NCBI RefSeq assembly: GCF_001278945.1
Contig: NZ_LGRV01000003.1
Coordinates: 1,550,001 to 1,614,000, forward strand
Origin: Lysinibacillus contaminans
Lineage (GTDB): Bacteria > Bacillota > Bacilli > Bacillales_A > Planococcaceae
Length of the DNA stretch: 64,000 bases
Reading direction: 5' to 3'
Positions 12,717 through 32,058 of this stretch are shown here, one piece after another. The translations under genes were made by a program, and so were the position numbers. Positions within the stretch are counted from its first letter, which is position 1. Every line of letters starts with the position of its first letter. Under the pieces are notes generated by a model. That model saw nothing but the letters and a program-made list of their open reading frames with translations, did not search any database and was not told where the DNA came from.

Positions 12717-13841
12717 TTAACGGAAATCCGCCTTGAATTCACCAGTGATTTTCTGATGCCCATTATCCACATCATACACTTGTACTTGTTCAAGTTCGAA
12801 GCGATCCATAATCGGCAGATCGTTCACCGAGAACAGGTAAGAATCTTCTGAAACTACATGTTCATGCCATGCCCAGTTTGGAATGACAAAATAATCACCT
12901 TTTTTCCAATCAAAACGTACGCCGTTAATAATCGTGTAACCAGATCCTTTATATGCATGATGGATTGTCGAATGCGTATGACGATGTGCTTTCGTATGGA
13001 ATCCTTTTGGAAGATACTGCATCCTTGAACCGATCGTTGGGTTTGCCGTTTTTCCAGTAGATGGATTGATGTACTCAATCGCAAAACCTTCATACGGATC
13101 AGGGTCAAAATTCATCAAACCTTTAATCGCTTCCTCTGTACGATTCCACTTGAAATTTGCTAAAGGTGCAATCGTATAATTGGCATCACCAACAGGTCGA
13201 ACCATACCGCCCCTATAACGAAGTTCCGAAAAGTTATCCGGTACATCAGGCTGTTGGAGTCCATCTTTATGTGGTTCAAAGAATGTCCCGCCAATCGAAT
13301 ATAATGTTGGAATATCGAGCGCATCCATCCATATCATCGGTTTATCACCGACATGACCATGACCGTGCCACAGGTTCTTCGGTGTCGTCAAGAAGTCACC
13401 TTCTTGCATATAAATCCGTTCGCCTTGAACAATTGTATACGCACCTTCACCATCTGTAATAAAACGAATTGCACTTTGTGTATGTCGATGCGATGGTGCT
13501 TCTTCTCCAGGAAGTAAAAGTTGAACTGCAGCATACAATGTTTGTGTTGTCGACGCCCAACCCCAAGGCTGACGATACGTTAAACCAGGGTTTTGAAAAT
13601 AAATCGCACGACGTTCGCCGCCGCGTTCTGGTGTGAATATTTCTGCTGCTTCCATCAATTTCTTAGTCAATAGTTCCCCGCTCCAAAGATATGCCTCGGC
13701 TTGCGGTTTTGGTGTTTTATTCATAATTTCAGGGATAGCTTCCCAAAGAGGACCGAGATTGTATTGTTGAATATCCTTCGTAAAGTCTTTAACTGTGTTA
13801 CTGCTCATAAATTGTTTGACTTCTTCTTTCATTTCTGCCAT
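12717..13841 (-). CDS. gtdA: Gentisate 1,2-dioxygenase
   Basis: The 374-aa bicupin enzyme opens the ring of gentisate (2,5-dihydroxybenzoate) between C1 and C2 with O2 and Fe(II), giving maleylpyruvate. The N-terminal cupin has the iron-ligand motif PSHRHTQSA (His118, His120) and NLWHGHGH (His159). A second cupin begins near residue 280 (HTKAHRHTHSTIHHAYKGSG). Length and motifs fit the family well. It is the last gene of a unit with the DinB-fold protein and the FAH-type hydrolase, i.e. all three gentisate pathway steps in one place. Confidence 0.95.
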   Translation of the reverse strand: MAEMKEEVKQFMSSNTVKDFTKDIQQYNLGPLWEAIPEIMNKTPKPQAEAYLWSGELLTKKLMEAAEIFTPERGGERRAIYFQNPGLTYRQPWGWASTTQTLYAAVQLLLPGEEAPSHRHTQSAIRFITDGEGAYTIVQGERIYMQEGDFLTTPKNLWHGHGHVGDKPMIWMDALDIPTLYSIGGTFFEPHKDGLQQPDVPDNFSELRYRGGMVRPVGDANYTIAPLANFKWNRTEEAIKGLMNFDPDPYEGFAIEYINPSTGKTANPTIGSRMQYLPKGFHTKAHRHTHSTIHHAYKGSGYTIINGVRFDWKKGDYFVIPNWAWHEHVVSEDSYLFSVNDLPIMDRFELEQVQVYDVDNGHQKITGEFKADFR

Positions 13842-13873
13842 TCAAAACACATCCTTTTCTTATATTATCCTAA

Positions 13874-14365
13874 TCAGTTTCGTTTACTTAAATTGCGTTG
13901 AATTTGAACGTAATGTGTGTTCGTATGTTCCATCAGGAAATGATTGATGATGAACGACACTGGTTTGTTGCCAAACTTTTCAAAATTACGATGCGGATTC
14001 TCTGCATTAAGTTGTGCTTCACTTAAACCGATTAGACGGTCTGAAACTTGTTGTCTTATATTTTCCAACTTCGCAATTTCTTCTTCAATACTCAGCTCAT
14101 CTGGATTAGATACTGCCGCAAGTCTACTTTCATCCGCTAAACCACGTCCCCACTTCGAACCCGGCTCTGCCACTACACGCTCCACTTCGCCAAGCCAGTA
14201 TGGAATCGCTTCATTTAAGTGCGATACAATTTGCATGATTGACCATTCTTCTTCAGTTGGATTCCAACGAATAACCGTTTCATCTAATCCTTCTACACTT
14301 TTAAGAATGTCACAGATTGAGTCATTAATTACTCGAATCGAGTCTTTATTTGTTGTGGTAGTCAT
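13874..14365 (-). CDS. DinB-fold protein, probable thiol-dependent maleylpyruvate isomerase
   Basis: A 163-aa DinB/YfiT-type four-helix protein. The metal triad is present: His49 (VSHLNEA), His147 and His151 (MEHTNTHYVQ). The gentisate route needs maleylpyruvate to be isomerised to fumarylpyruvate. Glutathione-using bacteria use a zeta-type transferase; actinobacteria use a mycothiol-dependent DinB-fold enzyme. Bacilli make bacillithiol, and their known bacillithiol transferase is also DinB-fold. The gene is two bases from the hydrolase stop and 32 bp from the dioxygenase start. I infer a bacillithiol-dependent isomerase; a generic DinB protein is the alternative. Confidence 0.72.
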   Translation of the reverse strand: MTTTTNKDSIRVINDSICDILKSVEGLDETVIRWNPTEEEWSIMQIVSHLNEAIPYWLGEVERVVAEPGSKWGRGLADESRLAAVSNPDELSIEEEIAKLENIRQQVSDRLIGLSEAQLNAENPHRNFEKFGNKPVSFIINHFLMEHTNTHYVQIQRNLSKRN

Positions 14366-14366
14366 G

Positions 14367-15314
14367 TTAGTTCCTCCCTGCTTGTAGAACTACTTTATTT
14401 TCCAGTACCCCTACTTGGTCAATTTCTATTTTCACTACATCGCCATCTTTTAAGAATGTTGGAGGATCCATTGCAACGCCTACGCCGCCTGGTGTTCCAG
14501 TTAAAATGATGTCACCCGGTTCAAGCGTAACTAACTTCGAAATGAATGAAACCAGATGTTGAACAGAGAAAACCAGATTCTCTGTATTCGTTTTCTGTCT
14601 CACCTCGCCATTAACTGACAGTACGACACCGAGTCCAGATGGATTTGTTAATTCATCAGTAGTAACCATCCAAGGTCCCATTGGTGCACTGCCGTCAACT
14701 GTTTTTCCTTGAAGCCATTGCAGTGTTCGCCTTTGTATATCACGATAAGTTACGTCGTTGGCAATTGTGTAACCTGCCACGTAATCAAGTGCATCTTCTT
14801 CAGATACATTGCGCGCTTGCTTACCGATTATAACTGTGAATTCAGCTTCGTAATCCAGTTGTTCAGAAATCGGATGGAACGGTATATCGTCTTCCGGTCC
14901 AATAACTGTATTCGCAAACTTAGCGAATAAAACTGGATTAGTTGGAAGGTCGCGCCCCATTTCTAAAATATGTTCACGGTAGTTATGCCCTACACAGAAA
15001 ATCTTCCCTGGGTCTGTCACTGGTGCATTTACTTTTACTTCACTTTTATCATAAATCAGCTGGTGCTTGAAGTTGCTAGTATTGGAAAGTGCATAGTTAA
15101 TCACAGACTTAGCAATTTCCATGCTGTCATTTCCACCTTCAAGGAAGCCTTCCATTTTGGCTGGCACATATGCTTCAGCAATGGCTTCATATCGATACTT
15201 GCCCTCACTCTGAAGCTGTGCTTGGTACGCATAATTGAGGTCGACTACCTTTTCCCCTTCAACAATTGCACCAATACGAGAAAAACCTGCAGTTGTAAAT
15301 GTAATCAGTTTCAT
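14367..15314 (-). CDS. Fumarylacetoacetate-hydrolase-family enzyme, probable fumarylpyruvate hydrolase
   Basis: 315 residues with the FAH fold: FCVGHNYREHILEMG, LFAKFANTVIG, the metal-binding DYEAEFTVIIGK (E-x-E), GYTIANDVTYRDIQ, and GDIILTGTPGGVG. In the gentisate pathway this family splits fumarylpyruvate into fumarate and pyruvate. The start is the ATG with GGGAG six bases upstream (MKLITF), 22 codons inside the longest frame. It is the first gene of the hydrolase - isomerase - dioxygenase unit. Related FAH enzymes act on other dioxo acids, but context favours fumarylpyruvate. Confidence 0.87.
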   Translation of the reverse strand: MKLITFTTAGFSRIGAIVEGEKVVDLNYAYQAQLQSEGKYRYEAIAEAYVPAKMEGFLEGGNDSMEIAKSVINYALSNTSNFKHQLIYDKSEVKVNAPVTDPGKIFCVGHNYREHILEMGRDLPTNPVLFAKFANTVIGPEDDIPFHPISEQLDYEAEFTVIIGKQARNVSEEDALDYVAGYTIANDVTYRDIQRRTLQWLQGKTVDGSAPMGPWMVTTDELTNPSGLGVVLSVNGEVRQKTNTENLVFSVQHLVSFISKLVTLEPGDIILTGTPGGVGVAMDPPTFLKDGDVVKIEIDQVGVLENKVVLQAGRN

Positions 15315-15479
15315 AATTATCTCCCTTTTAAATGTTTTATTTAAACACTCCAATTCTCTTAGCAACGATGTTCCATCCACTAATACACAACGGCAGTAAT
15401 AGCAATCACGCTAAAATACTAAAACAATAGTTCCAATTATTAGAATGCGCATTACAAGTGGTCATCTGGCTACCTCATA

Positions 15480-17039
15480 CTAAGTTGTAAAAGCTTGATT
15501 ATGCTTATTTAGCTCTTCTTTCAACTTTAATTTGCTTATCTTCCCTGACGACGTGACGGGTAACTCATCTAGAATGAGGAACTTGTCTGGAATTTTGTAT
15601 TTGACAAACCGTTCTTTCATAAAAGCAAGCAATTCCTCTTCGTTAGATGTTTCCCCTTCTCGAAGGACAACACAGGCATATGTCAATTCGCCAAATATCG
15701 CATCTGGAAGACCGATGACTGCAGCTTCCAAAATAGCTGGATGTTGATGAAGTGCCTCTTCTAATTCCCGTGGATAAATATTAAATCCACCTTTAATGAT
15801 CATTTCTTTTTTCCGACCGACTATACGAACGTAACCATTTTCATCGATTGTTGCCATATCTCCTGTATAAAACCAACCTTCCTGATCAATTGCTTGAGCA
15901 GTTTCTAGCGGCATATTGTAATAACCTTTAGTCACTCCAGGACCCTTACAAGCAAGTTCCCCAACCTCGCCGACCCCACACTCCTGCCGATTTTCATCGA
16001 CCACTTTTAATTTCACGCCAGGTATCGGTCGACCCACTGTTTCAGAACGCGCCTTATCATCAGCATCAAATCCAGTCAGTGTAAGTGTTGCAGACGTTTC
16101 AGTTGAGCCATAAGCGATTAGAACATTGCAGTTCATATCCGTCCGTATTTGTTTTACAACTTCCACCGGGCATGGTGCAGCAGCCATTTCACCTGTTCGA
16201 AGGGAACTTAAGTCATATTTCTCAAAATCAGAAGAGTTCAGTTCCAATATAAACATCGTTGGAACACCTGGATGTACAGTCACTTTTTCTGATTCGATGA
16301 GTGCCAATGCCCCTGTCACTGAATACTTCCGCATAACCACTAATTTCCCACCACAAAATATTGCCCGAAGAAGAAAGGTGATACCCATAATATGAAACAT
16401 TGGATTTGGAATTAAAAACACATCATCTTCTGTACATTCCATAACTTTTGAAGCTGAAGCGGAACTAAACAATACGTTTTCATGCGTTAGCATCGCACCT
16501 TTTGGATGCCCTGTTGTGCCCGATGTAAACATAATTGTAAATAAATTATCCTTCGGCTCAACTCGTATATCTTCAAATTCATTACCAACTAATAAATCAT
16601 CATAATAAAGATATTCCTCCGCCTGAAAACCAACGGAAATTAGCATCTCCAACGATTCTATTTCTTCGCGAAGTTCTGAATAAAAACTTACTTCTCCACA
16701 AAGTAACGCTTTGGCACCCGTTTGTTGCACTAGATAGGAACATTCCCCTTTGCTGAAAAATGGATTAAGAGGAATTAAAACAGCTCCAACACGTGCAATA
16801 GCAAAAAATGATGTGACGAATTCAATTGAATTTATGAGTGCGACCGCCACGCGATCACCGCTTTTAACACCACTATTTTTTAGTCCTTGAGCAAGTTTTG
16901 TCACTTCATGATCTAATTGTCCGTATGTCATTCTTCTTTTTTCATCATAGATTGCTTCCCGATTTGGCAATTTATTAGCTTTAATTTTCAATAAATCACT
17001 GACATTAGAATGCATTAAAATGTTATCCAAATTATCCAC
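15480..17039 (-). CDS. Acyl-CoA ligase (AMP-forming), probable aromatic-acid CoA ligase
   Basis: The 519-aa class I adenylate-forming enzyme has the P-loop-like MFTSGTTGHPKGAMLTH near residue 170, the AYGSTETSATLT motif, GWFYTGDMATIDENGYVRIVGR, and the C-terminal catalytic lysine in PVTSSGKISKL. It activates a carboxylic acid as acyl-AMP and then acyl-CoA. Next to beta-oxidation and gentisate genes its likely substrate is a phenylpropanoid-type or hydroxybenzoic acid rather than a plain fatty acid. Start is a GTG (a TTG three codons later is possible). Confidence 0.9.
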   Translation of the reverse strand: MDNLDNILMHSNVSDLLKIKANKLPNREAIYDEKRRMTYGQLDHEVTKLAQGLKNSGVKSGDRVAVALINSIEFVTSFFAIARVGAVLIPLNPFFSKGECSYLVQQTGAKALLCGEVSFYSELREEIESLEMLISVGFQAEEYLYYDDLLVGNEFEDIRVEPKDNLFTIMFTSGTTGHPKGAMLTHENVLFSSASASKVMECTEDDVFLIPNPMFHIMGITFLLRAIFCGGKLVVMRKYSVTGALALIESEKVTVHPGVPTMFILELNSSDFEKYDLSSLRTGEMAAAPCPVEVVKQIRTDMNCNVLIAYGSTETSATLTLTGFDADDKARSETVGRPIPGVKLKVVDENRQECGVGEVGELACKGPGVTKGYYNMPLETAQAIDQEGWFYTGDMATIDENGYVRIVGRKKEMIIKGGFNIYPRELEEALHQHPAILEAAVIGLPDAIFGELTYACVVLREGETSNEEELLAFMKERFVKYKIPDKFLILDELPVTSSGKISKLKLKEELNKHNQAFTT

Positions 17040-17215
17040 CTCTACCTCTATACTTTCACCTCTAAATAAAAACCATGAAAAAATGTTATTTTGAATGTTT
17101 GATAAATAATTCCCACGACTTTATCTAGATAGCCCCAACAACTAGCGAGCTATTAAAAGGTAACGAATGCTCAAATCGACTTCCTTGGACAACCATTAGG
17201 ATTACTTATAATTTT

Positions 17216-18391
17216 TTATAACGATTCCCAAATTGCCGCGATTCCTTGGCCGCCGCCAATGCAAACTGCCGTTGCACCATACCTTTTATTACGTCTTTTT
17301 AATTCGTAAACAAGTGAATGCGCGATTCTTGTTCCGCTTGCTGCAAGTGGATGTCCGAGAGCAACAGCACCACCATTAACATTCCCTATTTCCAAGTCAA
17401 ATCCAAGTTCCTTCTGACAAGCTAGATACTGCGCCGAGAAAGCTTCGTTAATTTCGATCAAATCCAAATCTTCCAACTGTAAATCGGCTTTTTTCAAAGC
17501 GCCTCTAATCGCTGGTACCGGCCCAATCCCCATATATTTAGGATCAACACCAACAACATCCCACGAAACAAGACGCGCAATCGGTTTCAATCCATTTTTC
17601 TCTGCATAATGGCTAGATGCAATAATAACTGCCGCTGCACCATCAACCATTCCACTTGCATTTCCCGGTGTAACAACCCCACCCTCAACAAAGCGAGCTT
17701 CCAGTTTCCCTAGTTTTTCCATAGTTGTCTCGCGGATATGTTCGTCATGCTCAACGAGGTTATCGCCTTTTCTTCCTTTGACAGTTACAGAGACAATTTC
17801 TTCTTTAAAATAGCCTTTATCTCTCGCATTGATAGCACGCTCATGACTGGAAAGTGCATGGGCATCCACTTCTTCGCGTGTTATTTTATACTTTTCCGCA
17901 AGATTTTCTGCGGTTTGCGACATTGTACATCCAACGTTCGTATCAAGTAAGCCATCCCAAACCCAGTCTTCAACCACTGGTCCTCCAAGTGGGCTTCCCC
18001 ATCTCGCACCGCGAATAACGTGAGGTACTTGGCTCATATTTTCAGTACCACCAGCCAAAACAACATTCGCTTCTCCTGTAAGAATATAGCGTGCTCCAGT
18101 TAAAATTGCTTCAATACCAGTACCACATACTCGGTTGATTGTAACTGCCGGTACCTCAAGAGATGTACCTGCTTTCAAGCCAACATGTCTTGCTAATAAA
18201 TGCGCATCTTTACTCGACTGCTGAACGTTACCGAATACAACTTGATCGATGTCTTCGGGGTTGATTTTTGATTTCCGAATTGCTTCTTTCGCTGCGATTA
18301 CGCCAAGTTCTGTCGCCGTAATGTCACGGAATGAACCTGAAATTTTTGCAAATGGCGTACGTGCACCTTCTAATAAAACTATATCTGTCAT
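17216..18391 (-). CDS. Thiolase family acetyl-CoA acyltransferase
   Basis: 391 residues. The nucleophilic cysteine is in VTINRVCGTGIEAI (about residue 90), and the second half has EINEAFSAQ, GGAVALGHPLAASGTR and CIGGGQG with the second catalytic cysteine. It cleaves a 3-ketoacyl-CoA with CoA to release acetyl-CoA, the last step of a beta-oxidation turn, or works in reverse. AAGGGGTG lies before the ATG at 18391. It sits between the acyl-CoA dehydrogenase and ligase genes of the island. Confidence 0.93.
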   Translation of the reverse strand: MTDIVLLEGARTPFAKISGSFRDITATELGVIAAKEAIRKSKINPEDIDQVVFGNVQQSSKDAHLLARHVGLKAGTSLEVPAVTINRVCGTGIEAILTGARYILTGEANVVLAGGTENMSQVPHVIRGARWGSPLGGPVVEDWVWDGLLDTNVGCTMSQTAENLAEKYKITREEVDAHALSSHERAINARDKGYFKEEIVSVTVKGRKGDNLVEHDEHIRETTMEKLGKLEARFVEGGVVTPGNASGMVDGAAAVIIASSHYAEKNGLKPIARLVSWDVVGVDPKYMGIGPVPAIRGALKKADLQLEDLDLIEINEAFSAQYLACQKELGFDLEIGNVNGGAVALGHPLAASGTRIAHSLVYELKRRNKRYGATAVCIGGGQGIAAIWESL

Positions 18392-18529
18392 TCTAAACAC
18401 CCCTTCCACTATTTTTGAGACCACTGAAAAAGTGAAATTCCCAGAAATATAAAGTAAAATTCACGTAATAAATGATTATAAAAAATTCTACTTTATTGTT
18501 TTTCAGCGCCCTCTTATTCTTCAGATTGA

Positions 18530-20233: not shown

Positions 20234-20352
20234 TTTCTTTCACTCCCTCTATCTAGAAATCTGATTATTCAATGTCTGTCTTAACTAGGCTTTGTAGAAA
20301 ATGAAGAACCTGATGATTTTGCATATGGACGCTTCTTTATTCTTTTGTTTTG

Positions 20353-22004: not shown

Positions 22005-22040
22005 CATTTATCTCCCCTAACTATTTTCTTTATTTTCATT

Positions 22041-22242: not shown

Positions 22243-22284
22243 TTTTCTGTTGTAAGTTACGATGTTTAAATATGTTTTTCCATA

Positions 22285-22833
22285 TTACAATAGATAAATC
22301 GTATTTCCATCCAGACCCACAGGTACATGCCCAGCTTCAAGCAATTCAAGCAAAGGAGTAAACGAGTCCGCCTCGCCTGCAAGTTCTGCTGTACAAACAA
22401 GAACTGCAATGTACATCGCGTGTCCTACAAAGAAATTGACTTGCTTTTCTTCACCGAATTCTTGGAATGCTTTCTGAAATGCTGCATGAAAAACTGCTTG
22501 CGGTACTGTTTCAACTGCTATTTTAAGTAAATCTGTTAGACCAGCTTCATCAATTTTCTTTTTCAATAGATCTGGAAGACTACTCAAGACTTTCCATAGT
22601 TCGCTATTATCAAATGTTAACTTGCTAATTGTTTCTGATGTCTGCTCTTTTGTTATCCACTGAATTTCGTAATCAACCACTTGCAATTTTTGCATAAAGC
22701 GTTGTAATGCTTCTTCGGCAGTCTTTTCTTTAACCCCTGCTTTTTTGTACCAATCAATAGCAGACAATCGTTCAGCTATCTCATTGATTGACTGCGCTTT
22801 CGAACCGAACTTAATCTCACTAATCAACACCAT
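22285..22833 (-). CDS. Unrecognised helical protein within the aromatic catabolic island (182 aa)
   Basis: 182 residues, mostly helical: SINEIAERLSAIDWYKKAG, a KKKIDEAGLTDLLKIAVETV segment, FHAAFQKAFQEFGEEKQVNFFVGHAMYIAVLVCTAELAG in the second half (one buried-looking hydrophobic helix) and a C-terminal VGLDGNTIYLL. It has no signal peptide. GGAGG lies eight bases before the ATG. It follows the flavin monooxygenase by 39 bp and shares its terminator, so it is probably an accessory protein of that hydroxylase or of substrate handling. I know no family. Confidence 0.75.
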   Translation of the reverse strand: MVLISEIKFGSKAQSINEIAERLSAIDWYKKAGVKEKTAEEALQRFMQKLQVVDYEIQWITKEQTSETISKLTFDNSELWKVLSSLPDLLKKKIDEAGLTDLLKIAVETVPQAVFHAAFQKAFQEFGEEKQVNFFVGHAMYIAVLVCTAELAGEADSFTPLLELLEAGHVPVGLDGNTIYLL

Positions 22834-22872
22834 GTGATAATCCTCCTTTTTAACTTCAAGTGTTAATTACCA

Positions 22873-24102
22873 TTAATATTTTGTTGTCAGTTCAGGTGGA
22901 CCGAATTTCGGGCCATATGGACCTTCATCGAGCCAGCGTCCGAGCGTCGGGACGATTGAAACGAGTGAAGCTGCAAGTTCGCGCTTCATATTCATTTCCA
23001 ACGAATCGCCCTGTAAGTGATGAAGCGCAGTTGTCGATCCATCTCGGTTCCACAGTGCTGCAATTCTCCGTTCATTGGCCGCTGCGTCAATAGCTTGACA
23101 ACGTTCTTCTTCACTTGTTGCATTTATTGCCTGTTCGATACCACGAACTGCAATAACTGCATCAGGTATTCCAGAATTCAATCCACGTGCACCGAAAGGA
23201 GCGAACAAATGAGCTGCTTCACCAGCTAGTAAAATACGACGCTTCTCATCCGTAAATGAATCGACAACTACTTGATGGAAACGGTATGAGGATACCCAAG
23301 TAACTCGTTCTGCATATTTTGGATTCATCACTTTTGGAAGCCACTCTTTCACACTTTCTTCTGTGCCGTAATCTTCGACCTTATCTTCAGCTAGCAGTTG
23401 AAGATCGACGCGCATGCCCCCTTTAAATGGAACAAACATTACGTTACGGCTTCCCATTGCTGGGTGCTGATAGTGGAAGATCCGTTCAATCGGCATTGGA
23501 TCATTTTCATCTTCTTCAATATCCACGACTATGAATGTATCATTCGTACGTGGACCTTCAAATTGAATTCCAGACTGTTCACGCACGACAGAACGAGCGC
23601 CGTCGCAGCCGATTATATAATCTGCTTCCCAAATCTCACCCGAAGCCGTTGTTAACTTAACGCCTTCATCTGTTATATCTATATCTTTTGCAGGTTCTCC
23701 CCAGACAAATTCAACACCTGCCTCAGAACAAGCATTGTAAATATGCTTTTCAATCTTATGTTGATGAAGCGATGCAAAATGCGGTAATTTAGTCGAATCT
23801 TGAGTATTGGTTACCCCATAATTACGCACATACACTTCTTTTCCACGGAATAAAGTTCTTTTGATTGGCCATATAACTCCATCTTTAGCCAATTCAAAAC
23901 CAAGACCTTTTGAAGTTTCTTCCAACAACTTTAACGATGCCCCATGAATATAGATCGCCCGGCTACCTGCTCGCGGATAATCCTTTTCTTCCGATTCGAT
24001 AACTACACATGATATACCTTTATTTTGAAGGGCCAATGCCGAAATAAGTCCAACTGGTCCAGCTCCTACAACGATTACATTTCGTTTTTTTACATTTATC
24101 AT
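22873..24102 (-). CDS. FAD-dependent aromatic-ring monooxygenase
   Basis: The 409-aa group A flavin hydroxylase has GAGPVG at residues 13-18 (Rossmann FAD site), the DG motif in YIIGCDGARSVVREQSG near 165, and a variant of the GD motif: RRILLAGEAAHLFAPFGARG, with Glu where most have Asp. Relatives hydroxylate phenolic acids, e.g. 3-hydroxybenzoate to gentisate, or salicylyl-CoA to gentisyl-CoA. Given the gentisate genes, either product is plausible. GGGGATG lies seven bases before the ATG. It is the first gene of a two-gene unit. Confidence 0.9.
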   Translation of the reverse strand: MINVKKRNVIVVGAGPVGLISALALQNKGISCVVIESEEKDYPRAGSRAIYIHGASLKLLEETSKGLGFELAKDGVIWPIKRTLFRGKEVYVRNYGVTNTQDSTKLPHFASLHQHKIEKHIYNACSEAGVEFVWGEPAKDIDITDEGVKLTTASGEIWEADYIIGCDGARSVVREQSGIQFEGPRTNDTFIVVDIEEDENDPMPIERIFHYQHPAMGSRNVMFVPFKGGMRVDLQLLAEDKVEDYGTEESVKEWLPKVMNPKYAERVTWVSSYRFHQVVVDSFTDEKRRILLAGEAAHLFAPFGARGLNSGIPDAVIAVRGIEQAINATSEEERCQAIDAAANERRIAALWNRDGSTTALHHLQGDSLEMNMKRELAASLVSIVPTLGRWLDEGPYGPKFGPPELTTKY

Positions 24103-24212
24103 CTATTAACATCCCCTTTTCTAAGCAATTGAAATAGTTTTCAATCTGATTTTAGTGGTTAATCTCACGGAAATAATTCTATAAATACCTCAAAATACCA
24201 ATATTATTTTTT

Positions 24213-24253
24213 AAAAAAAGAAACCTATATCAATATGTATTGTTATAGGTCTT
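24213..24253 (-). terminator. Terminator of the ABC importer operon
   Basis: ACCTATA-type arms (24223-24230 and 24245-24250, extended by imperfect pairs) followed on the minus strand by TTTCTTTTTTT. It starts just after the binding-protein stop. Confidence 0.65.
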
Positions 24254-24258
24254 TCCAT

Positions 24259-25425
24259 TTACTCAGTAAACTTCCAATCATTATTTTCGATACTTAAAAC
24301 AGAAATTCCATCAGGTTCAGGGCTTGCTTGTGATACACCAAAATCAAATGTTCCCGTAGCACCTAAATATGTTCCTAAATCGTTTTGTAAATAATTATGA
24401 ATATCTTCTGATGTTACATTACCAGCTTTAATCGCATTTACGACTACGTTTACACCGTCCAAAAGATGAGCAGCAAATAAATCTGGTTTACTATTAAATT
24501 CTTTTACATATGAATCATTGAATGCCTTAAGCATTTCTTTTTGATCCGAATCTGGCAGTTGATCTATAACACTTAGTTTACTACCAACGACCAAAATGTT
24601 TTCATTGTCATCTTTTACTTGTTCCAAGAATCCTTGGTTTGCGGCAGCAGTACTTTGAATCATCGGAATATCGAAATTCAACGCTTTAAAATTACGAGCG
24701 ATAATTCCAGCTCCAGGTGTTCTCGACCAAACGATGATCGCTTCGGGATTACTTTTACGAACTTTTGTCAATTGTATTGTCATATCTGTAGCAGTAGCAT
24801 CGAACTCTTCATGAGCAATAATCTCTATGCCATTTTCCTTAGCTAACGCTTCAAATGCTGGCTTACCAGTTACTCCGAAACCGTCAGAAGCATTCACCCA
24901 TGCTACTTTTTTAATATTATTCTTCTTTAAATATTCGACAATCGGAATTGCAATGACAGTTGTACTTTGTGCCATGCTGTATACATACTCACTATCCGAT
25001 TGAATCGGTGCAATTGTAAATAATGGTAGTTTCTTCTCAATTGCTTTTGGTATAATGGCCATCGTAGTACTCGATTGAGTCGCTCCAGTAACCGCTACAA
25101 CACCTTCTGAAATTAATTTATCCATCGCGACTACCGCTTTTGTATCATTCGTTTCATAGTCTTGTTTGATAAGTTGAATTTTATTACCATCAATGGGACC
25201 CGCTTCATCTAATTGTTTTTGTAATAACTCCACAGTCTTTGCCTGTGCACTACCAAGTGTTGATGCTGGACCCGTTTCAGCTACAATCACACCAATTTTT
25301 ATAACACCTCCCTCTTTTTTCTCACCGCTAGTCTCCTCTTCTTTCTCAATTCCACATCCCGCAATAACTACTAGAAAAACTAAAGATAAAATAGCCACTA
25401 GCTTACCCTTAAGAATTTTTTTCAT
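24259..25425 (-). CDS. ABC importer substrate-binding lipoprotein, branched-chain/aromatic-acid type
   Basis: 388 residues. A lipoprotein signal ends at VIAGC, so it is anchored outside the membrane. The mature part is a type I periplasmic-binding fold (IKIGVIVAETGPASTLG, GVVAVTGATQSSTTMA, IKKVAWVNASDGFG) of the LivK class. Members of this class also bind aromatic acids such as hydroxycinnamates. It is the last gene of a five-gene importer unit, which is placed directly before the ring-hydroxylase unit. ATG with GAAGGG upstream; a frame seven codons longer has no good site. Confidence 0.92.
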   Translation of the reverse strand: MKKILKGKLVAILSLVFLVVIAGCGIEKEEETSGEKKEGGVIKIGVIVAETGPASTLGSAQAKTVELLQKQLDEAGPIDGNKIQLIKQDYETNDTKAVVAMDKLISEGVVAVTGATQSSTTMAIIPKAIEKKLPLFTIAPIQSDSEYVYSMAQSTTVIAIPIVEYLKKNNIKKVAWVNASDGFGVTGKPAFEALAKENGIEIIAHEEFDATATDMTIQLTKVRKSNPEAIIVWSRTPGAGIIARNFKALNFDIPMIQSTAAANQGFLEQVKDDNENILVVGSKLSVIDQLPDSDQKEMLKAFNDSYVKEFNSKPDLFAAHLLDGVNVVVNAIKAGNVTSEDIHNYLQNDLGTYLGATGTFDFGVSQASPEPDGISVLSIENNDWKFTE

Positions 25426-25472
25426 ATAACCCTTCAACTCCCTCAACTTTTTGGTTAAAACATTTGGTTCGC

Positions 25473-26195
25473 TTACCCTACCTTTATTCCTAGATATGCT
25501 GATTTCACTTCAGGATTCGAACTGATTTCTTCATTGGTGCCGTTCATTATGAATTTCCCTTGATCCATTACATATGCCCGATCAGCCACCTTTAACGCTG
25601 CTTTAACATTTTGTTCAACTAAAATGACCATTGTTCCCATTTCTTCTTTAATTCGCACTAAAATCTCCAAAATTTCATTCACTATTTTTGGCGCTAACCC
25701 CATTGACGGCTCATCTAGAAGAATTATTTTAGGATCAGACATGAGCGCACGTCCAATCGCAAGCATCTGCTGCTCCCCACCACTCAAATTCCCGCCAATC
25801 CTATGATAATGTTTTTTCAATCCTGGAAATAACTCCAGCATTCGTTCCAAATTTTCCTCCACATGTTTCCGGTCTTTATAGTATTTCGAGTAAATCCCTA
25901 ATGTCAGGTTTTCCTTTACAGTGTGTCCAGGAAAAATTTGACGTCCCTCCGGAACAAGACATAAACCTTTCCCAACTATTTTGTGGGCCGGAAGACCACT
26001 AATTAAATCATCTTGAAGTGTTACTTTTCCTTCGACTGGTGTGTAAATGCCCGCTAATGTATTTAATAACGTACTTTTCCCAGCGCCATTAGCACCAATA
26101 ATGGATACAATTTCACCTTTGTCCACATGAAAGTCGAGCGAATGTAAAATTTGAATCTTCCCGATACGTGAACTAAGACTTTCAACTTTGAACAT
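25473..26195 (-). CDS. ABC importer ATPase, LivF type
   Basis: 240 residues with Walker A GANGAGKST, the signature NLSGGEQQMLAIGRAL, Walker B IILLDEPSMGLAP and the switch histidine region ILVEQNV. The short LivF form, lacking the insertions of LivG, pairs with the next ATPase. Its ATG overlaps the stop of the LivG-type gene (TAATG), so the two subunits are co-translated. It energises uptake through the membrane pair. Confidence 0.95.
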   Translation of the reverse strand: MFKVESLSSRIGKIQILHSLDFHVDKGEIVSIIGANGAGKSTLLNTLAGIYTPVEGKVTLQDDLISGLPAHKIVGKGLCLVPEGRQIFPGHTVKENLTLGIYSKYYKDRKHVEENLERMLELFPGLKKHYHRIGGNLSGGEQQMLAIGRALMSDPKIILLDEPSMGLAPKIVNEILEILVRIKEEMGTMVILVEQNVKAALKVADRAYVMDQGKFIMNGTNEEISSNPEVKSAYLGIKVG

Positions 26196-26962
26196 TAAAT
26201 TACCTCCTCTCCTAAATAAGCACTAATTACCTTTTCATTTTTCTGTATTTCATCTGGAGTACCTTCCGCAATCTTAGTCCCGAAATCAAGAACCACAATC
26301 CGATCAGCAAGTTGCATAATTGTTGCCATTTTATGCTCTACAAATAAAAACGAATGTCCTTTTTCTTTTAAATCACTTATATATCCTGCCATTGTATTTG
26401 TCTCGGCATCATTCAGACCAGCCATTGGTTCGTCCAACATGATGAGCTCTGGTTTGTAAACAATGGCCCGTGCGAACTCCAACTTCTTTTGCAACCCATA
26501 AGATAGTTGTCCAGCTTGTTCATGTAATAGATCATTCATCCCCATCATCGTCAGTACATCATAAGCTGCTTTATAGGCATATTCTTCATCTCTTTTTACT
26601 GATGGAAGACGGAATCCAGCACTAAAAACATTCGTTTTTAAATTCACCGAAGTCCCCATCATCACGTTTTCCAAGACTGTCATATTACTGAAAATTTGCA
26701 AGTTTTGAAACGTCCTGGAGATCCCAAGGTGAGCTAAGTCAAAAATTTTTCTTCCCGTTAATTTCTTCCCTTTAAAAAGAACTTCTCCTTCAGTCGGTTG
26801 AACATAGGAAGAAATCATATTAAACAATGTCGTTTTACCCGCTCCATTTGGACCGATAACAGCAACAATTTCTCCTTCTCCGATTTGAAAGCTAACATCA
26901 TTTACCGCTGTCACTCCACCGAACTTTTTCGTTAAACCATTCACTTGGAGTAAATCGCCCAT
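26195..26962 (-). CDS. ABC importer ATPase, LivG type
   Basis: 255 residues: Walker A GPNGAGKTT, signature QLSYGLQKKLEFARAI (SYG in place of SGG, usual in LivG), Walker B LIMLDEPMAGLN, and the C-terminal LDFGTKIAEGTPDEIQKN. Its ribosome site AAAGGGG lies within the last codons of the upstream permease gene. Confidence 0.95.
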   Translation of the reverse strand: MGDLLQVNGLTKKFGGVTAVNDVSFQIGEGEIVAVIGPNGAGKTTLFNMISSYVQPTEGEVLFKGKKLTGRKIFDLAHLGISRTFQNLQIFSNMTVLENVMMGTSVNLKTNVFSAGFRLPSVKRDEEYAYKAAYDVLTMMGMNDLLHEQAGQLSYGLQKKLEFARAIVYKPELIMLDEPMAGLNDAETNTMAGYISDLKEKGHSFLFVEHKMATIMQLADRIVVLDFGTKIAEGTPDEIQKNEKVISAYLGEEVI

Positions 26963-26964
26963 AT

Positions 26965-28005
26965 CTATACCCCTTTCTCAGAAGCAACATTTTCCTTAAC
27001 GGTTACATCTTTTTTCATAGAACTTTCAATAGGTAATATTTTCCTAAAGTCTAATATTCCAATCAAGCCTTTAGGTATGAAGATCATAACAAGTATTATG
27101 ATTAAACCATAAACTACGATTTCGACTTCACCATTAATATTGAAATACGTATGTCCTACAAAACGAATTGCTTCATTTAAAAACATGATCGCAGCCGTTC
27201 CAATTATTGCTCCCCAAATGGAATGAACACCACCGACCATTACCATTACAAGAAGTAAAATTGAAAATGAAATATAAAATGTAGGCGGTGCGATAAAATT
27301 AATGTAATGCGCGTATAGACTACCAGCCAAAGAAGCAAATACAGCACTTAATGCAAAAATAGCTACTTTATATTTTGTTACATTAACACCTAGTGTCTCC
27401 GTGCCGATTTCACTATCATGAATACTTCGTAATATTCGCCCAATACTCGAACGAATAATATTAGTAGAAAACAAGATAACAATAAAGACGATACTCCAAA
27501 CAAAGAAGTAGAAGTACAATTGGTTTCCTAAGTCCAGTCCCATTAATGATAAATTTGGAATACCGACTAATCCACCAGCTCCCCCTGTGTAATCACTTAA
27601 CCCAACCAATAAAATGTATACAATGACGTTAATCGCAATAGTTGCCAATGCCAAAATATGACCTTTTAGTTTTAATACTTGCATCCCAATCAAATATGCA
27701 ATGATAAACGTGACAACCATTCCAATTCCCATCGCGATCCATGGAGATACGTTGTATTTAACTGTTAAGACACCGGAAACATATGCACCAATTCCGACAA
27801 ATGCAGCGTGTCCTATCGAAATTTGACCGGCGTAACCAATTAGCAAACTTAGACCAATGGTGATGATGCAATAAATCCCTATTAAAATCAAAAGCGTAAA
27901 TACGTATTGCGAACTCACAACCAGTGGCAATAACAAAATCAATGCAATAAATCCCAAAAATCCTTTCCAGCGGCTTCCATATAAAATCGATTCTACTTTC
28001 TCCAC
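26965..28005 (-). CDS. ABC importer permease, LivM type
   Basis: 346 residues, about nine to ten membrane helices, with the LivM core motif GYAGQISIGHAAFVGIGAY near residue 60 and ALATIAINVIVYILL. Forms the translocation channel with the LivH-type partner. The start is a GTG with AGGAGGGGG upstream. The C-terminal tail is unusually charged (about 25 residues, KKDVTVKENVASEKGV). Confidence 0.94.
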   Translation of the reverse strand: MEKVESILYGSRWKGFLGFIALILLLPLVVSSQYVFTLLILIGIYCIITIGLSLLIGYAGQISIGHAAFVGIGAYVSGVLTVKYNVSPWIAMGIGMVVTFIIAYLIGMQVLKLKGHILALATIAINVIVYILLVGLSDYTGGAGGLVGIPNLSLMGLDLGNQLYFYFFVWSIVFIVILFSTNIIRSSIGRILRSIHDSEIGTETLGVNVTKYKVAIFALSAVFASLAGSLYAHYINFIAPPTFYISFSILLLVMVMVGGVHSIWGAIIGTAAIMFLNEAIRFVGHTYFNINGEVEIVVYGLIIILVMIFIPKGLIGILDFRKILPIESSMKKDVTVKENVASEKGV

Positions 28006-28023
28006 TGTATATCCCCCTCCTAA

Positions 28024-28896
28024 CTAAACACGTTCTCCAGTTGCCTTTGTAAACAAGCCTTGTGGTCTGAAAAATAAGACTAACAATAAGAAACCAAATG
28101 CCAATGCGTCCGAATAATAAGTGGAGATGTATCCGCCTGAAAATGCTTCAATGACGCCCAATAATAACCCCCCTGCAACAGCTCCAGGTATACTGTGCAT
28201 TCCACCGAAAATCATTGCTACAAACCCTTTTATACCGATAAAAAAGCCCATTTCATATGTTGCATCTGTCAGCGGAGCAATCATGACACCTGCTATAGCG
28301 CCTAATCCAGCAGCAATTGTAAAAGCAATCATAGACATCGTGCTTGTGTTAATCCCCATTAAGCTTGCAGCACGTGGATTTTTTTCACTTGCGCGTAATG
28401 CAGAACCGAGAAATGTTTTCTCAAAAAACCAATAAAGTACTACTAAATGTGCAATCAATACGACAAGAATCCACAAGCTTTGTGAATTAACGACAGCCCC
28501 CATAAACTCAATTGACTTACTTTCAACTAACGGTGGTAGAGATTTTGGAGATGTTCCCCATATGATCAAACCCATTCCTTTTAAAAAAATTGAAACACCT
28601 AATGTAATTACAACCAACACTATCGGTGTTGCTTTCCTAGCAGGATTAATAGCCAATCTTTCAACCGCTAAGCCGATAATGGCCGTAATCAAAATCGCAA
28701 GTGGAATTGCACCAAAGATTGGGATACCTAAATTGACCAGTGTGACACAAGATAATGCTCCAATCATCGCAAATTCTCCTTGCGCCAGATTCAATACTCC
28801 TGTAACGTTATAAATTGTTACAAACCCAACAGCCAATAACGCATAAATACTCCCTACAGTCAGTCCAGTAATTAAGTACTGTAAAAATAAATCCAT
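28024..28896 (-). CDS. ABC importer permease, LivH type
   Basis: 290 residues, about eight membrane helices, with LTVGSIYALLAVGFVTIYNV at the N-terminus, LNLAQGEFAMIGAL and GGMHSIPGAVAGGLLLGVIE. First gene of the importer unit (permease, permease, ATPase, ATPase, binding protein). AGGGGG lies before the ATG. Confidence 0.95.
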   Translation of the reverse strand: MDLFLQYLITGLTVGSIYALLAVGFVTIYNVTGVLNLAQGEFAMIGALSCVTLVNLGIPIFGAIPLAILITAIIGLAVERLAINPARKATPIVLVVITLGVSIFLKGMGLIIWGTSPKSLPPLVESKSIEFMGAVVNSQSLWILVVLIAHLVVLYWFFEKTFLGSALRASEKNPRAASLMGINTSTMSMIAFTIAAGLGAIAGVMIAPLTDATYEMGFFIGIKGFVAMIFGGMHSIPGAVAGGLLLGVIEAFSGGYISTYYSDALAFGFLLLVLFFRPQGLFTKATGERV

Positions 28897-29220
28897 CTGA
28901 TATAACCCCCTTCGAAATAGCTCTATGGCTAAGATAATCGCCTTAGGTCTTTTGTTTACTCAATAAACCCCTCATATTTTTGTCGATTTTGACAATGATC
29001 ACGTTCCTAACATCCGTTCATTTCTCTTTCACTATTAAGTTATTGATACTGTGGTTCTGACAAGACCCTCACAAAAAGATAACGCTTTCATAAAGTCGAA
29101 ATGAACTTATTAGACTCTTTTATATTTCCTAGTAAAGAAGACTCTGAAAAACTTACACTCAACCTTTTGTATATTTAGATTGTTTCTTGCATTTTAAAGA
29201 CTATCTCAATTCTCATCTGA
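28897..29220. other. Upstream region of the importer operon
   Basis: No gene. A perfect inverted repeat, TTGTC-GATTTT-GACAA, lies at 28979-28994, about 85 bp before the permease start, and may be an operator. I see no clear -10/-35 pair. Confidence 0.4.
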
Positions 29221-29631
29221 TCATTCTTTTTGATGAGCTATAAGTTTTTTACGTATATAATCTGGAATTTCAAATGCTTTTGGTTGCCCTTTAAACGAAG
29301 TCCAAGCACGTAATGTGTACCCTTCAGCAACCAATGTCTCTCCACGATAAAATGTATGAGATAATTTAAAGACTTTATTGTGAATTTCGGCAACTTCCGT
29401 TTTCACAATAACCTCATCTTCGAAAAAAAGTGGCGTCTTAAATTCGCATTTAGAATCTAAAAGTGGCGTCGAAATTTTTTCTATGGATAATAACTCAGAA
29501 GTTGGATGTCCCAACTCAGTAAAAAATTCATGCGTCGCTTCGTCCATCCACCTATAAAAATTCGGAAAAAAAACAATTGCCACAGCATCCGTATCGCCAA
29601 ACCTTACCTTAAACGAGTAATCTACAGCCAT
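29221..29631 (-). CDS. 4-hydroxybenzoyl-CoA-thioesterase-family acyl-CoA thioesterase
   Basis: The 136-aa hotdog-fold enzyme starts VDYSFKVRFGDTDAVAIVFFPNFYRWMDEA, where the Asp of GDTDA is the catalytic residue and the VFFPNFY run is the 4HBT signature. It hydrolyses an aryl- or acyl-CoA. In this island it can release gentisate from gentisyl-CoA, or a hydroxybenzoate from its CoA ester before hydroxylation. It is a single-gene unit between the importer and regulator; AGGGGG precedes the ATG. Confidence 0.92.
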   Translation of the reverse strand: MAVDYSFKVRFGDTDAVAIVFFPNFYRWMDEATHEFFTELGHPTSELLSIEKISTPLLDSKCEFKTPLFFEDEVIVKTEVAEIHNKVFKLSHTFYRGETLVAEGYTLRAWTSFKGQPKAFEIPDYIRKKLIAHQKE

Positions 29632-29728
29632 TATACAACCCCCTGATTTTGCATATATCGTGTCTACGAACTTGCTTCGAATTTACACCTTGATCCAACA
29701 GTCTTTTCGTTTCTCACAAAACATTTGT

Positions 29729-29834
29729 AATAGTTCACTTTTTCGTAACTATTCAACAACAATTATGTTTGAAATTTTTGTTGTTATTGTAATTATATTT
29801 TCCAATCATTTTATTTGATACGTACACTGTGTAG
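29729..29834. promoter_or_regulatory. Inverted repeats upstream of the thioesterase gene
   Basis: AATAGTT at 29729-29735 and AACTATT at 29747-29753 are inverted arms; further upstream TACAC-T-GTGTA at 29823-29833, read CTACACAGTGTA on the minus strand, resembles the palindrome before the dehydrogenase gene at 22068-22080. Likely regulator sites. Confidence 0.35.
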
Positions 29835-29868
29835 GAATCATTCTCTTTTTTTCATCAATATTGTTAAA

Positions 29869-32058
29869 TCAGTAAAATGCTTGTCGGTTCAAATCATATA
29901 GCTTCATCGCCATCATTAAATTAAAACGCGTTTCCGAATCATTTAAATCTATCTCGAGTACACTCTCAATCTTTTCCAAACGGTAAAGTAATGAACTTCG
30001 ATGAATGAATAACTCCTCGGAGGTACCTTTGGCATTGCCATTATTCCGCAAATACACACTAAGCGTTTGAAACAAATCAATGTTCTTTTTATCCGTAAAA
30101 TCAAGCAATACGCCCAACTGACTATGAATAAATGTGGTAACAACTGAAAAGTTTAGATCATGTAATATTGTGTATGATCCTATTTCTTCAAACAGTGAAT
30201 AGCCCTTGGATTTAAATCTACTTTTAACGACATTTAGTACTTGTAATGATTGTTCATAACTACTGGAGTACTCATTCATATTTTCTACCTTACTCCCAAT
30301 ACCTAAGTGAACTTCACACTTTATCAAACTTTTGGATACTGCTTTCCTAACCCTTTTATAAAAATCCGCCCAGAACTGTTTGCGATTTTTTTCATCCTCT
30401 ACCGGCACTATGAATAAATAGTGTTCACTAAATGTAGCCATTAAAATTTTCTGCGATTTCAGCGTAATAATTTCATTAATGTAATCCCACACAATCGATT
30501 TTTTTGCTGTTTGCTCAAATAAATTCAGTCCGGCTACTTCAGATTCAGCCAACTCGATTGACAAATTTGCGACACGATGAGGCTTAAAAATATCCCATTG
30601 AAAAAGATTTGCATATTGCAAAATACTTTGTTCATCTTCAATGTTTTTCACAAGTAATTTTCCCATCAATGTATCTTTGGCCTGTTTATCCGCATCCAAC
30701 ACAAGTTTCTGCTTGATGAATTGAATGGAACAAATATTTCTTGAAAGCTCCACCGTCAATTGATCAAATTCATCTAGATCTCCATTGTTTATACAAATTG
30801 CCAAATAGCCCAATAGCGCATTCACACCATTGATTGGCGAAATCAAAAAAGGAGGCCCGCCTGGTTCCAATACTTTAAACGTCCCTGTCCTAATACGCTC
30901 ATTTTCCAATACCTCTCTCAACTTACCAATATCCCCTAATTCACTTTCTTCTATTTTGTATGATAAAGGATGGTAAAAACGATCCAATAAAATCACTGAA
31001 CCACAATATAATTCAGCTAGCATTTGAGTTACACCGTGAAAATCATCATTGACAACCGTTTCTTTCACAAGTGCTTGCTGATAGTCGAGAAGGATTTGTA
31101 AACGTTCACGATGATCTTTCTCTAAATTGTAAAGCAGCGCATTTTCAAGCAAAATTGCTATGTGATCACTTAATAATTTCAATGTATTTACATCGTCTTC
31201 TGAAAATAGGAGATTACCATTCTTATTTCCTACTTGCAGAACACCGATTGTTTTCAAATCAACGACAATCGGGATTGTTATTTGATGACCACCTGATTTT
31301 TCGATGAATGAAAAGTACTCTTTAAATGTATTTTTATGACCCACGATAACCTTTTCATTGAAATCTTTAACACCATATATAGGTACTTGTAAATCAAAGC
31401 AATTTTCTTTTTCATTAAATAAATAAATACAGGCAGATTGTGCATTCGTCCCTAGTCCAGCTCGAGTAGTAAACTCACTTATATTTTCCTTGAGCGATTG
31501 ATTAATTGATAAGTTTCGATTAATCCATTCAATTCCCTCAATTTTTCTTAATTGCTGATCCTTACGTCTTGCTAAAGAAATCGCAATCGCAACATCTTTA
31601 CCGAACTCATCAAATATTTCATCCATTTCTAGCAAAGGTACGTAGGTAAAAAATCCGATAATGCAAAATCCATATCGGTGTACATCATCTGTAAGAGGTA
31701 CTGTAAACCATGTTTTTACACCCGTTTCTTTTAACTTTGTCATTAATATACAGTCTTCCCGTTTGTTAGTTTCCTTACTATGTAAACTTTGCTCTAATAT
31801 TACTGGTGAGCATTTATCTATTTCCATAGGAAAAACATTACCAAACTCATTAGCATTTCCACCCCATGCTTTCGGTACAAATTCCCCAGTCTCCGCCAAA
31901 ATTACACCAACAAAATCGCAATATAGCTCTGATTTAAATGAATCTATTAAATAATGAATCGCTTCTTCTTCCGTACCTATTTTTATTAATTGCCTTGATG
32001 TCATTCGCAAATGTTGTTCAAGTCTATTTATAATTTTTTCTTCTTTTATCTCACCCAT
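29869..32058 (-). CDS. GAF-domain PucR/CdaR-family transcriptional regulator
   Basis: The 729-aa protein has two GAF-like sensory segments (about residues 20-160 and 180-310, with AIAISLARRKDQ and GVLQVGNKNGNLLFSEDDVNTLKLLSDHIAILLENA), a GGDEF-like/CdaR middle, and the PucR C-terminal HTH (NGNAKGTSEELFIHRSSLLYRLEKIE). Such regulators sense small molecules and control nearby catabolic genes. It is the promoter-distal-most gene at the right end of the island, in the same orientation, and is the only regulator in it, so it probably governs the whole pathway. AGGGGG lies before the ATG. Confidence 0.9.
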   Translation of the reverse strand: MGEIKEEKIINRLEQHLRMTSRQLIKIGTEEEAIHYLIDSFKSELYCDFVGVILAETGEFVPKAWGGNANEFGNVFPMEIDKCSPVILEQSLHSKETNKREDCILMTKLKETGVKTWFTVPLTDDVHRYGFCIIGFFTYVPLLEMDEIFDEFGKDVAIAISLARRKDQQLRKIEGIEWINRNLSINQSLKENISEFTTRAGLGTNAQSACIYLFNEKENCFDLQVPIYGVKDFNEKVIVGHKNTFKEYFSFIEKSGGHQITIPIVVDLKTIGVLQVGNKNGNLLFSEDDVNTLKLLSDHIAILLENALLYNLEKDHRERLQILLDYQQALVKETVVNDDFHGVTQMLAELYCGSVILLDRFYHPLSYKIEESELGDIGKLREVLENERIRTGTFKVLEPGGPPFLISPINGVNALLGYLAICINNGDLDEFDQLTVELSRNICSIQFIKQKLVLDADKQAKDTLMGKLLVKNIEDEQSILQYANLFQWDIFKPHRVANLSIELAESEVAGLNLFEQTAKKSIVWDYINEIITLKSQKILMATFSEHYLFIVPVEDEKNRKQFWADFYKRVRKAVSKSLIKCEVHLGIGSKVENMNEYSSSYEQSLQVLNVVKSRFKSKGYSLFEEIGSYTILHDLNFSVVTTFIHSQLGVLLDFTDKKNIDLFQTLSVYLRNNGNAKGTSEELFIHRSSLLYRLEKIESVLEIDLNDSETRFNLMMAMKLYDLNRQAFY

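Follow-up and report, generated by a model that had tools for sequence, protein, structure and literature searches.

In a 64,000-nucleotide stretch of the Lysinibacillus contaminans genome (contig NZ_LGRV01000003.1, positions 1,550,001 to 1,614,000; hereafter the window), 17 minus-strand genes encoding proteins of 136-729 amino acids form an island between positions 12717 and 32058 (Table 1). Together they probably constitute a catabolic route for p-coumarate and/or 3-(4-hydroxyphenyl)propionate, which would run via 4-hydroxybenzoyl-CoA, a carboxyl shift and gentisyl-CoA; the gene content, linkage and conserved residues described below are direct observations. A preliminary description of the window had listed these genes and joined them into one route from a side chain to gentisate. 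All of the genes that it named lie on the minus strand where it had placed them, with assignments backed by hmmscan, and one further gene of the island, encoding the 182-amino-acid protein, was absent from it. The source genome (4.1 Mb in 9 contigs) has a listed completeness of 86%. Eight intergenic gaps of about 100-324 bases occur within the run. As promoter-like sites in 12600-32590 are not above chance (51, against 61.9 in shuffled sequences) and terminator-like sites are barely above it (17, against 11.9 with a standard deviation of 3.5), operon limits were left undrawn.

Table 1. Features of the island, from 5' to 3' in the direction of transcription; positions are those of the window.
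Feature	Position	Strand	Basis
PucR-type regulator with GAF region, 729 aa	29869..32058	-	PF13556, PF17853, PF13185
4HBT-fold thioesterase, 136 aa, proposed gentisyl-CoA thioesterase	29221..29631	-	PF13279, 5wh9, D15/D30
LivH-type permease	28024..28896	-	hmmscan
LivM-type permease	26965..28005	-	hmmscan
LivG-type ATPase	26195..26962	-	hmmscan
LivF-type ATPase	25473..26195	-	hmmscan
Liv-type substrate-binding lipoprotein, 395 aa from TTG, start uncertain	24259..25446	-	PF13458, 4dqd, 3sg0
Group A flavin monooxygenase, 409 aa, proposed hydroxybenzoyl-CoA hydroxylase (PhgB-like)	22873..24102	-	PF01494, PnpA
182-aa conserved protein, no matched family, hydroxylase partner gene	22285..22833	-	neighbourhood, predicted model
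3-hydroxyacyl-CoA dehydrogenase, 292 aa	21129..22007	-	NF004474, NF005875
Enoyl-CoA hydratase, 259 aa	20353..21132	-	NF004475
Acyl-CoA dehydrogenase, FadE type, 567 aa	18530..20233	-	NF058590
3-ketoacyl-CoA thiolase, 402 aa	17216..18424	-	TIGR01930
Acyl/aryl-CoA ligase, 519 aa	15480..17039	-	PF00501/PF13193, NF004837
FAH-family hydrolase, 337 aa, probable fumarylpyruvate hydrolase	14367..15380	-	PF01557, GDO/DinB neighbourhood
DinB-type protein, 163 aa, probable thiol-dependent maleylpyruvate isomerase	13874..14365	-	PF12867, three histidines
Gentisate 1,2-dioxygenase (GDO) homologue, bicupin, 374 aa, ring cleavage	12717..13841	-	TIGR02272, NF049978, 2d40, histidines

The association of these genes recurs in other Bacillota. 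A search for related loci returned 29 from Bacillus-type genera, Brevibacillus and Alicyclobacillus. The nearest hydroxylase and the nearest named relative are those of Lysinibacillus xylanilyticus SR-86 (L017; G057), with identical gene order and 88-97% identity, and a locus from another genus of the Planococcaceae (L079; G147) holds every part of the island in slightly altered order. At E ≤1e-40, the hydroxylase is present in 13 of 261 genomes of the family, the source genome counted, and in 3 of the 39 genomes around Brevibacillus fluminis, that species counted. Neighbourhoods were compared in 40 stretches from Bacillota, each about 11-21 kb long (L041, at 3.7 kb, was omitted), and in four from plasmids. 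Among the 40 Bacillota loci, GDO-type, FAH-type, thioesterase and ligase genes each occur in 24, the dehydrogenase in 19, the hydratase and the thiolase in 15 each, the DinB gene and the PucR-type regulator in 14 each, FadE in 10 and the Liv importer in 4. At least two of the dehydrogenase, hydratase and thiolase genes are found in 16 loci, and together with a GDO- or FAH-type gene in 13; a GDO- or FAH-type gene is found in 27, at identity limits that are loose (38% for GDO and 30% for FAH). Contig ends cut off six stretches (L019, L021, L027, L037, L039 and L078), and part of the GDO is missing from L017, so that, given stretch ends and fetched length, presence counts are lower bounds and absences upper bounds. 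The counts, based on open reading frames, also miss genes shown by tblastn (GDO in L036, ECH in L040 and HBDH in L042), and they retain near-copies (L019/L020, L040/L042 and L080/L081). Chance neighbourhood was rejected because the linkage recurs across these loci. At the level of gene content, the linked side-chain-to-gentisate route of the preliminary description is thus well supported, by linkage in relatives and by a beta-oxidation set that looks dedicated.

Of the beta-oxidation proteins, FadE belongs by score to the Bacillus FadE acyl-CoA dehydrogenase family (NF058590, 739.7 bits, cut-off 600) and the thiolase lies well above the cut-off of TIGR01930 (444.6 bits against 240.55). The 3-hydroxyacyl-CoA dehydrogenase passes NF005875 (322.1 bits, cut-off 319) and stays below NF004474 (367.1 bits, cut-off 408), while the hydratase, whose gene overlaps that of the dehydrogenase by 4 bases, is under the cut-off of NF004475 (312.8 bits against 394). 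Wherever the three core proteins were called in the 16 linked loci, they share 53-97% identity with their island counterparts, the exceptions being two Alicyclobacillus hydratases (44% in L037 and 38% in L038). Elsewhere in the source genome there are five further thiolase-like places, only 38-45% identical to the island thiolase, and the nearest FadE paralogue (51%) lies in the C3 cluster at 351.5-356.6 kb, which combines FadE, a thiolase and an 807-amino-acid frame with a 3HCDH match. Because a particular subfamily accompanies the hydroxylase and a separate set exists elsewhere in the genome, the beta-oxidation genes of the island look like a dedicated set that travels with the hydroxylase; general fatty-acid degradation as their role was rejected in view of that other set. 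A thiolase, a 3HCDH and two acyl-CoA dehydrogenase-like places also lie together at C2 267-271 kb, as a second set.

Where the beta-oxidation genes are missing from a locus, a PaaK-type CoA ligase often stands in their place. Counted at 62% identity or more to those of L070, L073 or L080, this ligase is encoded by 16 of the 40 loci, and only two of these (L032 and L040) have beta-oxidation as well, where independence would predict 6.4, the rows being related. Beta-oxidation alone is seen in 14 loci, the PaaK-type ligase alone in 14 and neither in 10, so that at least one of the two supplies is seen in 30 of the 40. By hmmscan, the ligases of L070, L073 and L080 are of PaaK type, all under curated cut-offs; similar genes of other loci were judged by eye. 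As the two supplies nearly exclude each other, one hydroxylase family appears to be fed an aroyl-CoA, hydroxybenzoyl-CoA, by alternative routes. Additionally, L073 and L080 encode MFS-type transporters and L073 an IclR/PcaR-type regulator (hmmscan), and L044 encodes a TPP-dependent enzyme and an aldehyde dehydrogenase. The ligase of the island itself is FadD/4CL-like (PF00501/PF13193; NF004837, 478.7 bits, cut-off 476), and among the solved structures related to it are those of FadD5, of a feruloyl-CoA synthetase (8wev) and of 4-coumarate-CoA ligases. In the source genome, at its listed completeness of 86%, the PaaK-type query from L080 gave no match at E ≤1e-15, in a search made without a positive control.

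The flavin hydroxylase matches PF01494 (162.8 bits), and its Pfam matches comprise nucleotide-binding oxidoreductase domains only. When solved structures were searched with its family profile (E 1e-8), the five best relatives were PnpA (E 1.2e-25), two rifampin oxygenases, VibO and HspB, and comparisons of its predicted model separate PnpA (Z 35.1), PHBH (Z 34.8) and HspB (Z 34.2) by less than 1. In PnpA, VibO and HspB, hydroxylation falls on a substituted carbon para to a ring hydroxyl. At E ≤1e-10 the island hydroxylase has 45 solved matches, with no 3-hydroxybenzoate 6-hydroxylase (3HB6H) entry (4bjy, 4bk1-4bk3) among them; a true 3HB6H of the same genus, the positive control for this search, finds 4bjy at E 1.5e-90. 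The 3HB6H subfamily (PRK08163/4bjy) was rejected on this ground. The bifunctional salicylyl-CoA 5-hydroxylase (PRK08255, a model of 768 positions) was also rejected, as its second half is missing from the 409-residue island protein. Plasmid relatives at E ≤1e-40 are found in haloarchaea (23 records) and Streptomyces (7). In the haloarchaeal loci L046 and L049 the relative lies near a cupin protein, a thioesterase, CoA ligase-type proteins and an FAH protein; the annotation of another haloarchaeal plasmid, L048, lists no cupin, thioesterase or FAH.

Directly downstream of the hydroxylase gene lies the gene for the 182-amino-acid protein, which may be a partner subunit of the hydroxylase, as its distribution suggests. 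A homologue is present in 29 of the 40 Bacillota loci, on the strand of the hydroxylase in all 29 and separated from it by at most 69 bases in 24 of them. On a hydroxylase tree of 45 rows, 29 of which carry this label, its distribution takes 3 changes, against 13.5 in shuffled data, and none of 500 shuffles was as low. The protein has no Pfam or NCBIfam match at E ≤0.001, its family of 22 members gives only weak and scattered Pfam matches (the best common to 3), and no homologue was found in the plasmid collection at E ≤0.001. The predicted model (pLDDT 93.4) is mainly helical with a C-terminal hairpin and has no Foldseek match at E ≤0.001. VIA-align, which covers only Foldseek-ranked chains, so that other folds are possible, pairs it with RhsI2 (Z 10.3, rmsd 3.8, 135 of 155 aligned; next unrelated row Z 3.6); the Foldseek E-value for this mostly helical protein is 0.72, and the match is a lead only, outside the argument.

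Within the ring-cleavage half, the dioxygenase is a bicupin with two Cupin_2 stretches, and H118, H120, H159, H161, H288 and H328 are conserved in 26 of 26 aligned relatives (≥25% identity; relatives for this and the residue counts below were picked by an identity limit). Its closest solved structures are gentisate dioxygenases (2d40, E 3.9e-73). The enzyme is a GDO homologue, and gentisate is its likeliest substrate, though by TIGR02272 it is not an equivalog. At E ≤1e-60 it is found in only 4 of 32 genomes of the genus. The FAH hydrolase (PF01557, 252.1 bits) is encoded next to the GDO and DinB genes in relatives as well. In the DinB protein (PF12867, 46.4 bits), H49, H147 and H151 are conserved in 14 of 14 aligned relatives (≥30% identity), the three-histidine pattern of bacillithiol transferases; in one of these, BstA, the metal-binding histidines are H67/H160/H164 (PMC5815605). 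BshC is encoded in the source genome, above its cut-off, and the DinB protein is probably a maleylpyruvate isomerase with bacillithiol as its thiol cofactor. In L018, L022-L026 and L031, another GDO/FAH pair, about 41-43% and 32-38% identical to that of the window, lies near the hydroxylase, with no adjoining DinB isomerase; L023 carries both pairs.

The thioesterase is related to the solved 4-hydroxybenzoyl-CoA thioesterase 5wh9 (E 2.2e-36), and its D15 and D30 are conserved in 24 of 24 aligned relatives (≥35% identity). By position they correspond to D16 and D31, reported for the gentisyl-CoA thioesterase BH1999 (PMC516016), and at the level of sequence the island protein thus qualifies as a candidate gentisyl-CoA thioesterase. 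The importer is of the Liv type, with one binding protein, two ATPases and two permeases. Its binding protein (PF13458, 138.1 bits) is closer to 4dqd and 3sg0 (E 8e-28) than to the Leu/Ile/Val-binding protein 1z15 (1.8e-8). Several of the better matches presumably come from Rhodopseudomonas aromatic-acid transporters.

From these observations we infer the substrate isomer, the acyl shift, the order of the steps and the thiol cofactor of the proposed route. The Liv-type importer would bring the acid in and the ligase would convert it to its CoA thioester, from which FadE (for the saturated acid only), the hydratase, the dehydrogenase and the thiolase would cut off acetyl-CoA to leave 4-hydroxybenzoyl-CoA. 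The flavin hydroxylase would attack ring carbon 1, with the CoA-carboxyl group shifting to the adjacent carbon (an NIH shift), giving gentisyl-CoA, from which the 4HBT enzyme would free gentisate. The cupin dioxygenase would then open the ring, the DinB protein would isomerise maleylpyruvate, probably with bacillithiol, and the FAH enzyme would produce fumarate and pyruvate. The more specific proposal of a hydroxycinnamate route that could bypass free 4-hydroxybenzoate, in which beta-oxidation would pass 4-hydroxybenzoyl-CoA directly to an acyl-shifting hydroxylase aided by a previously undescribed 182-residue partner, with a bacillithiol-dependent maleylpyruvate isomerase in the ring-cleavage half, is speculative, and we hold it to be unlikely.

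A precedent for the central steps is PhgABC, which Zhao et al. reportedly described in 2018 from Brevibacillus laterosporus PHB-7a. According to PMC7862547, this system ligates 4-hydroxybenzoate to CoA, hydroxylates the product with a 1,2-shift and hydrolyses the thioester to give gentisate. The proposed route shares with it a CoA-bound substrate, a hydroxylase, a thioesterase and gentisate as product; unlike PhgABC, the 4-hydroxybenzoyl-CoA of the island would derive from beta-oxidation of a side chain, and the importer and the regulator lie in the same block. The island also resembles the setting of BH1999, in the gentisate cluster of Bacillus halodurans C-125 (PMC516016), as both have a 4HBT-fold enzyme with the two catalytic aspartates, compared here by residue positions, within a gentisate cluster. 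The thermophilic Bacillus sp. B-1 (Peng et al., 2003) is described, in passages of PMC7581956, as degrading 4-coumarate through 4-hydroxybenzoate and gentisate; its start and end compounds agree with those proposed here, both in Bacillus-type bacteria. Those passages describe the route by its metabolites, with free 4-hydroxybenzoic acid as an intermediate, and give no gene cluster. In the literature covered in part (titles and starts of abstracts), no such island was described in a Gram-positive bacterium among the matches listed. The mycothiol-dependent maleylpyruvate isomerase, which presumably has a DinB-type fold, offers a further parallel. It isomerises maleylpyruvate within the gentisate pathway of Corynebacterium glutamicum (PMC4360819), a step also proposed for the DinB protein, which differs in its bacillithiol-transferase histidine pattern and in a genome that has BshC. 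Among eight publications combining 'bacillithiol' and 'maleylpyruvate isomerase', no title concerned a bacillithiol-dependent isomerase.

With only one hydroxylase in the island, the substrate would have to bear a ring hydroxyl already, and the question becomes which isomer it is. A meta- or ortho-hydroxyphenylpropanoid, yielding 3-hydroxybenzoyl-CoA or salicyloyl-CoA that is hydroxylated para to the hydroxyl with no migration, would pass through an identical gene set to the same end product, and flavin hydroxylases of the group to which the island enzyme belongs commonly attack para to a ring hydroxyl. Beta-oxidation of a meta-hydroxy side chain would likewise end in a CoA ester open to hydroxylation by a related enzyme, and Haloferax D1227 sends 3-hydroxybenzoate, phenylpropionate and cinnamate through gentisate (PMC4005966). 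A locus of the 3-hydroxybenzoate type within the genus is built differently. In this genome (G037; L105:4572-14366), a GDO/FAH/DinB unit in common with the island (78, 73 and 37% identity) stands beside a true 3HB6H of the other subfamily (PRK08163, E 2.3e-121, 405.6 bits, cut-off 459), and among its open reading frames of at least 90 amino acids over 19.9 kb none matches the ligase, thioesterase or beta-oxidation proteins of the window (E ≤1e-4), nor was a PaaK-type ligase match found in that stretch. Furthermore, loci that lack beta-oxidation seem to activate the free acid, hydroxylate it as the thioester and then remove the CoA once more; for a meta acid such PaaK-type activation would be wasteful, and the costly detour would make sense if, as in PhgABC, the thioester is needed for the carboxyl shift. 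The contrast with G037, the cost of the thioester, the solved relatives of the hydroxylase, its haloarchaeal plasmid relatives and the haloarchaeal and Bacillus precedents for 4-hydroxybenzoate (conversion to gentisate in Haloarcula D1 and some Bacillus, as reported in PMC10815724) favour the para isomer; the meta isomer is possible, and the meta/ortho version of the route fairly unlikely. Hence the linked route of the preliminary description stands, and its leading substrates, 3- or 2-hydroxyphenylpropionate, give way to para compounds, since the hydroxylase resembles neither 3HB6H nor the bifunctional salicylyl-CoA 5-hydroxylase and sister loci swap in a PaaK-type ligase.

That a fatty- or branched-acid beta-oxidation operon merely adjoins a hydroxybenzoate-gentisate operon of separate function is improbable, yet several observations lean that way, among them the eight gaps inside the run. 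By the standard that the preliminary description set itself, halves that usually stand apart in relatives would speak against one route, and here the outcome is divided: 16 of the 40 loci have beta-oxidation genes, and 24 show no such set within the stretch read. The beta-oxidation label, borne by 16 rows of the hydroxylase tree, takes 12 changes, against a shuffled mean of about 13.5, a number reached or undercut by 124 of 500 shuffles, and marks no single clade. Against separate functions speak the closeness of the hydroxylase-linked subfamily relative to the thiolase paralogues of the same genome, the further beta-oxidation set elsewhere and the expectation that a random 21-kb stretch (4.1 Mb, 6 thiolases) holds a thiolase in about 3% of cases, compared with 15 of the 40 loci. 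A substituted salicylate of the 5-amino- or 5-nitrosalicylate type as ring-cleavage substrate is barely credible: the top NCBIfam score of the dioxygenase is indeed for 5-aminosalicylate dioxygenase (NF049978, 307.2 bits, against 298 for gentisate), but both scores are far under their cut-offs (650 and 442.1), the solved relatives are gentisate dioxygenases, and the G037 enzyme of the same subfamily lies beside a 3-hydroxybenzoate 6-hydroxylase, whose product is gentisate. The p-coumarate route itself has to be set against a number of points. The dioxygenase falls short of the TIGR02272 cut-off; at an identity limit of 52%, GDO is counted in 13 loci (11 of the 24 GDO-type counts being under it) and FAH in 16, and both halves of the route occur in only 7 of 40; and G037 has the ring-cleavage unit without an island-type hydroxylase, which counts against full linkage. 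A single-sequence search puts PyrE3 (3.3e-20) slightly ahead of PnpA (5.5e-20), and the 3HB6H 4bk2 shares the hydroxylase fold (Z 31.8). The likeness to PhgABC is one of route description and not of sequence to PhgB, the one proven NIH-shift enzyme, and in Pseudomonas chlororaphis phgABC gave no significant gentisate, as a passage of PMC7862547 has it. The island ligase shares just 38-54% identity with its counterparts outside L017, so that different species may use different substrates, and the maleylpyruvate isomerase assignment draws on family, position and three histidines only.

These loci have further features of note. Upstream of the island, at 33271-34403, the translation, judged by eye, suggests a CheY-like receiver protein and a CcdA-like membrane protein, and genes that by eye are TRAP-like transporter genes lie downstream in L105. 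In L078 (143-4291; G239), two near-identical hydroxylase genes flank a gene that by eye resembles one for an MFS transporter. In Heyndrickxia coagulans 36D1 (L045:9941-11168), hydroxylase similarity extends past a 261-amino-acid open frame and the gene looks interrupted; this locus was kept in the locus counts and out of the hydroxylase tree. A plasmid of Streptomyces sp. Mg1 (L047:2579-21857) carries a relative of the hydroxylase with 46% identity, whose neighbours include pabB as well as aminotransferase class IV, AMP-binding and desaturase genes, and this position near p-aminobenzoate synthesis suggests use in a natural-product pathway.

If the proposed route is correct, the island would provide a gene-level basis in bacilli for the use of lignin-type p-hydroxyphenyl compounds via gentisate rather than protocatechuate, and would place an unusual carboxyl-migrating hydroxylation within a common side-chain pathway. 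The analysis further draws attention to an unnamed, conserved family of 182-residue proteins that tracks the hydroxylase, together with a maleylpyruvate isomerase that is likely to depend on bacillithiol.

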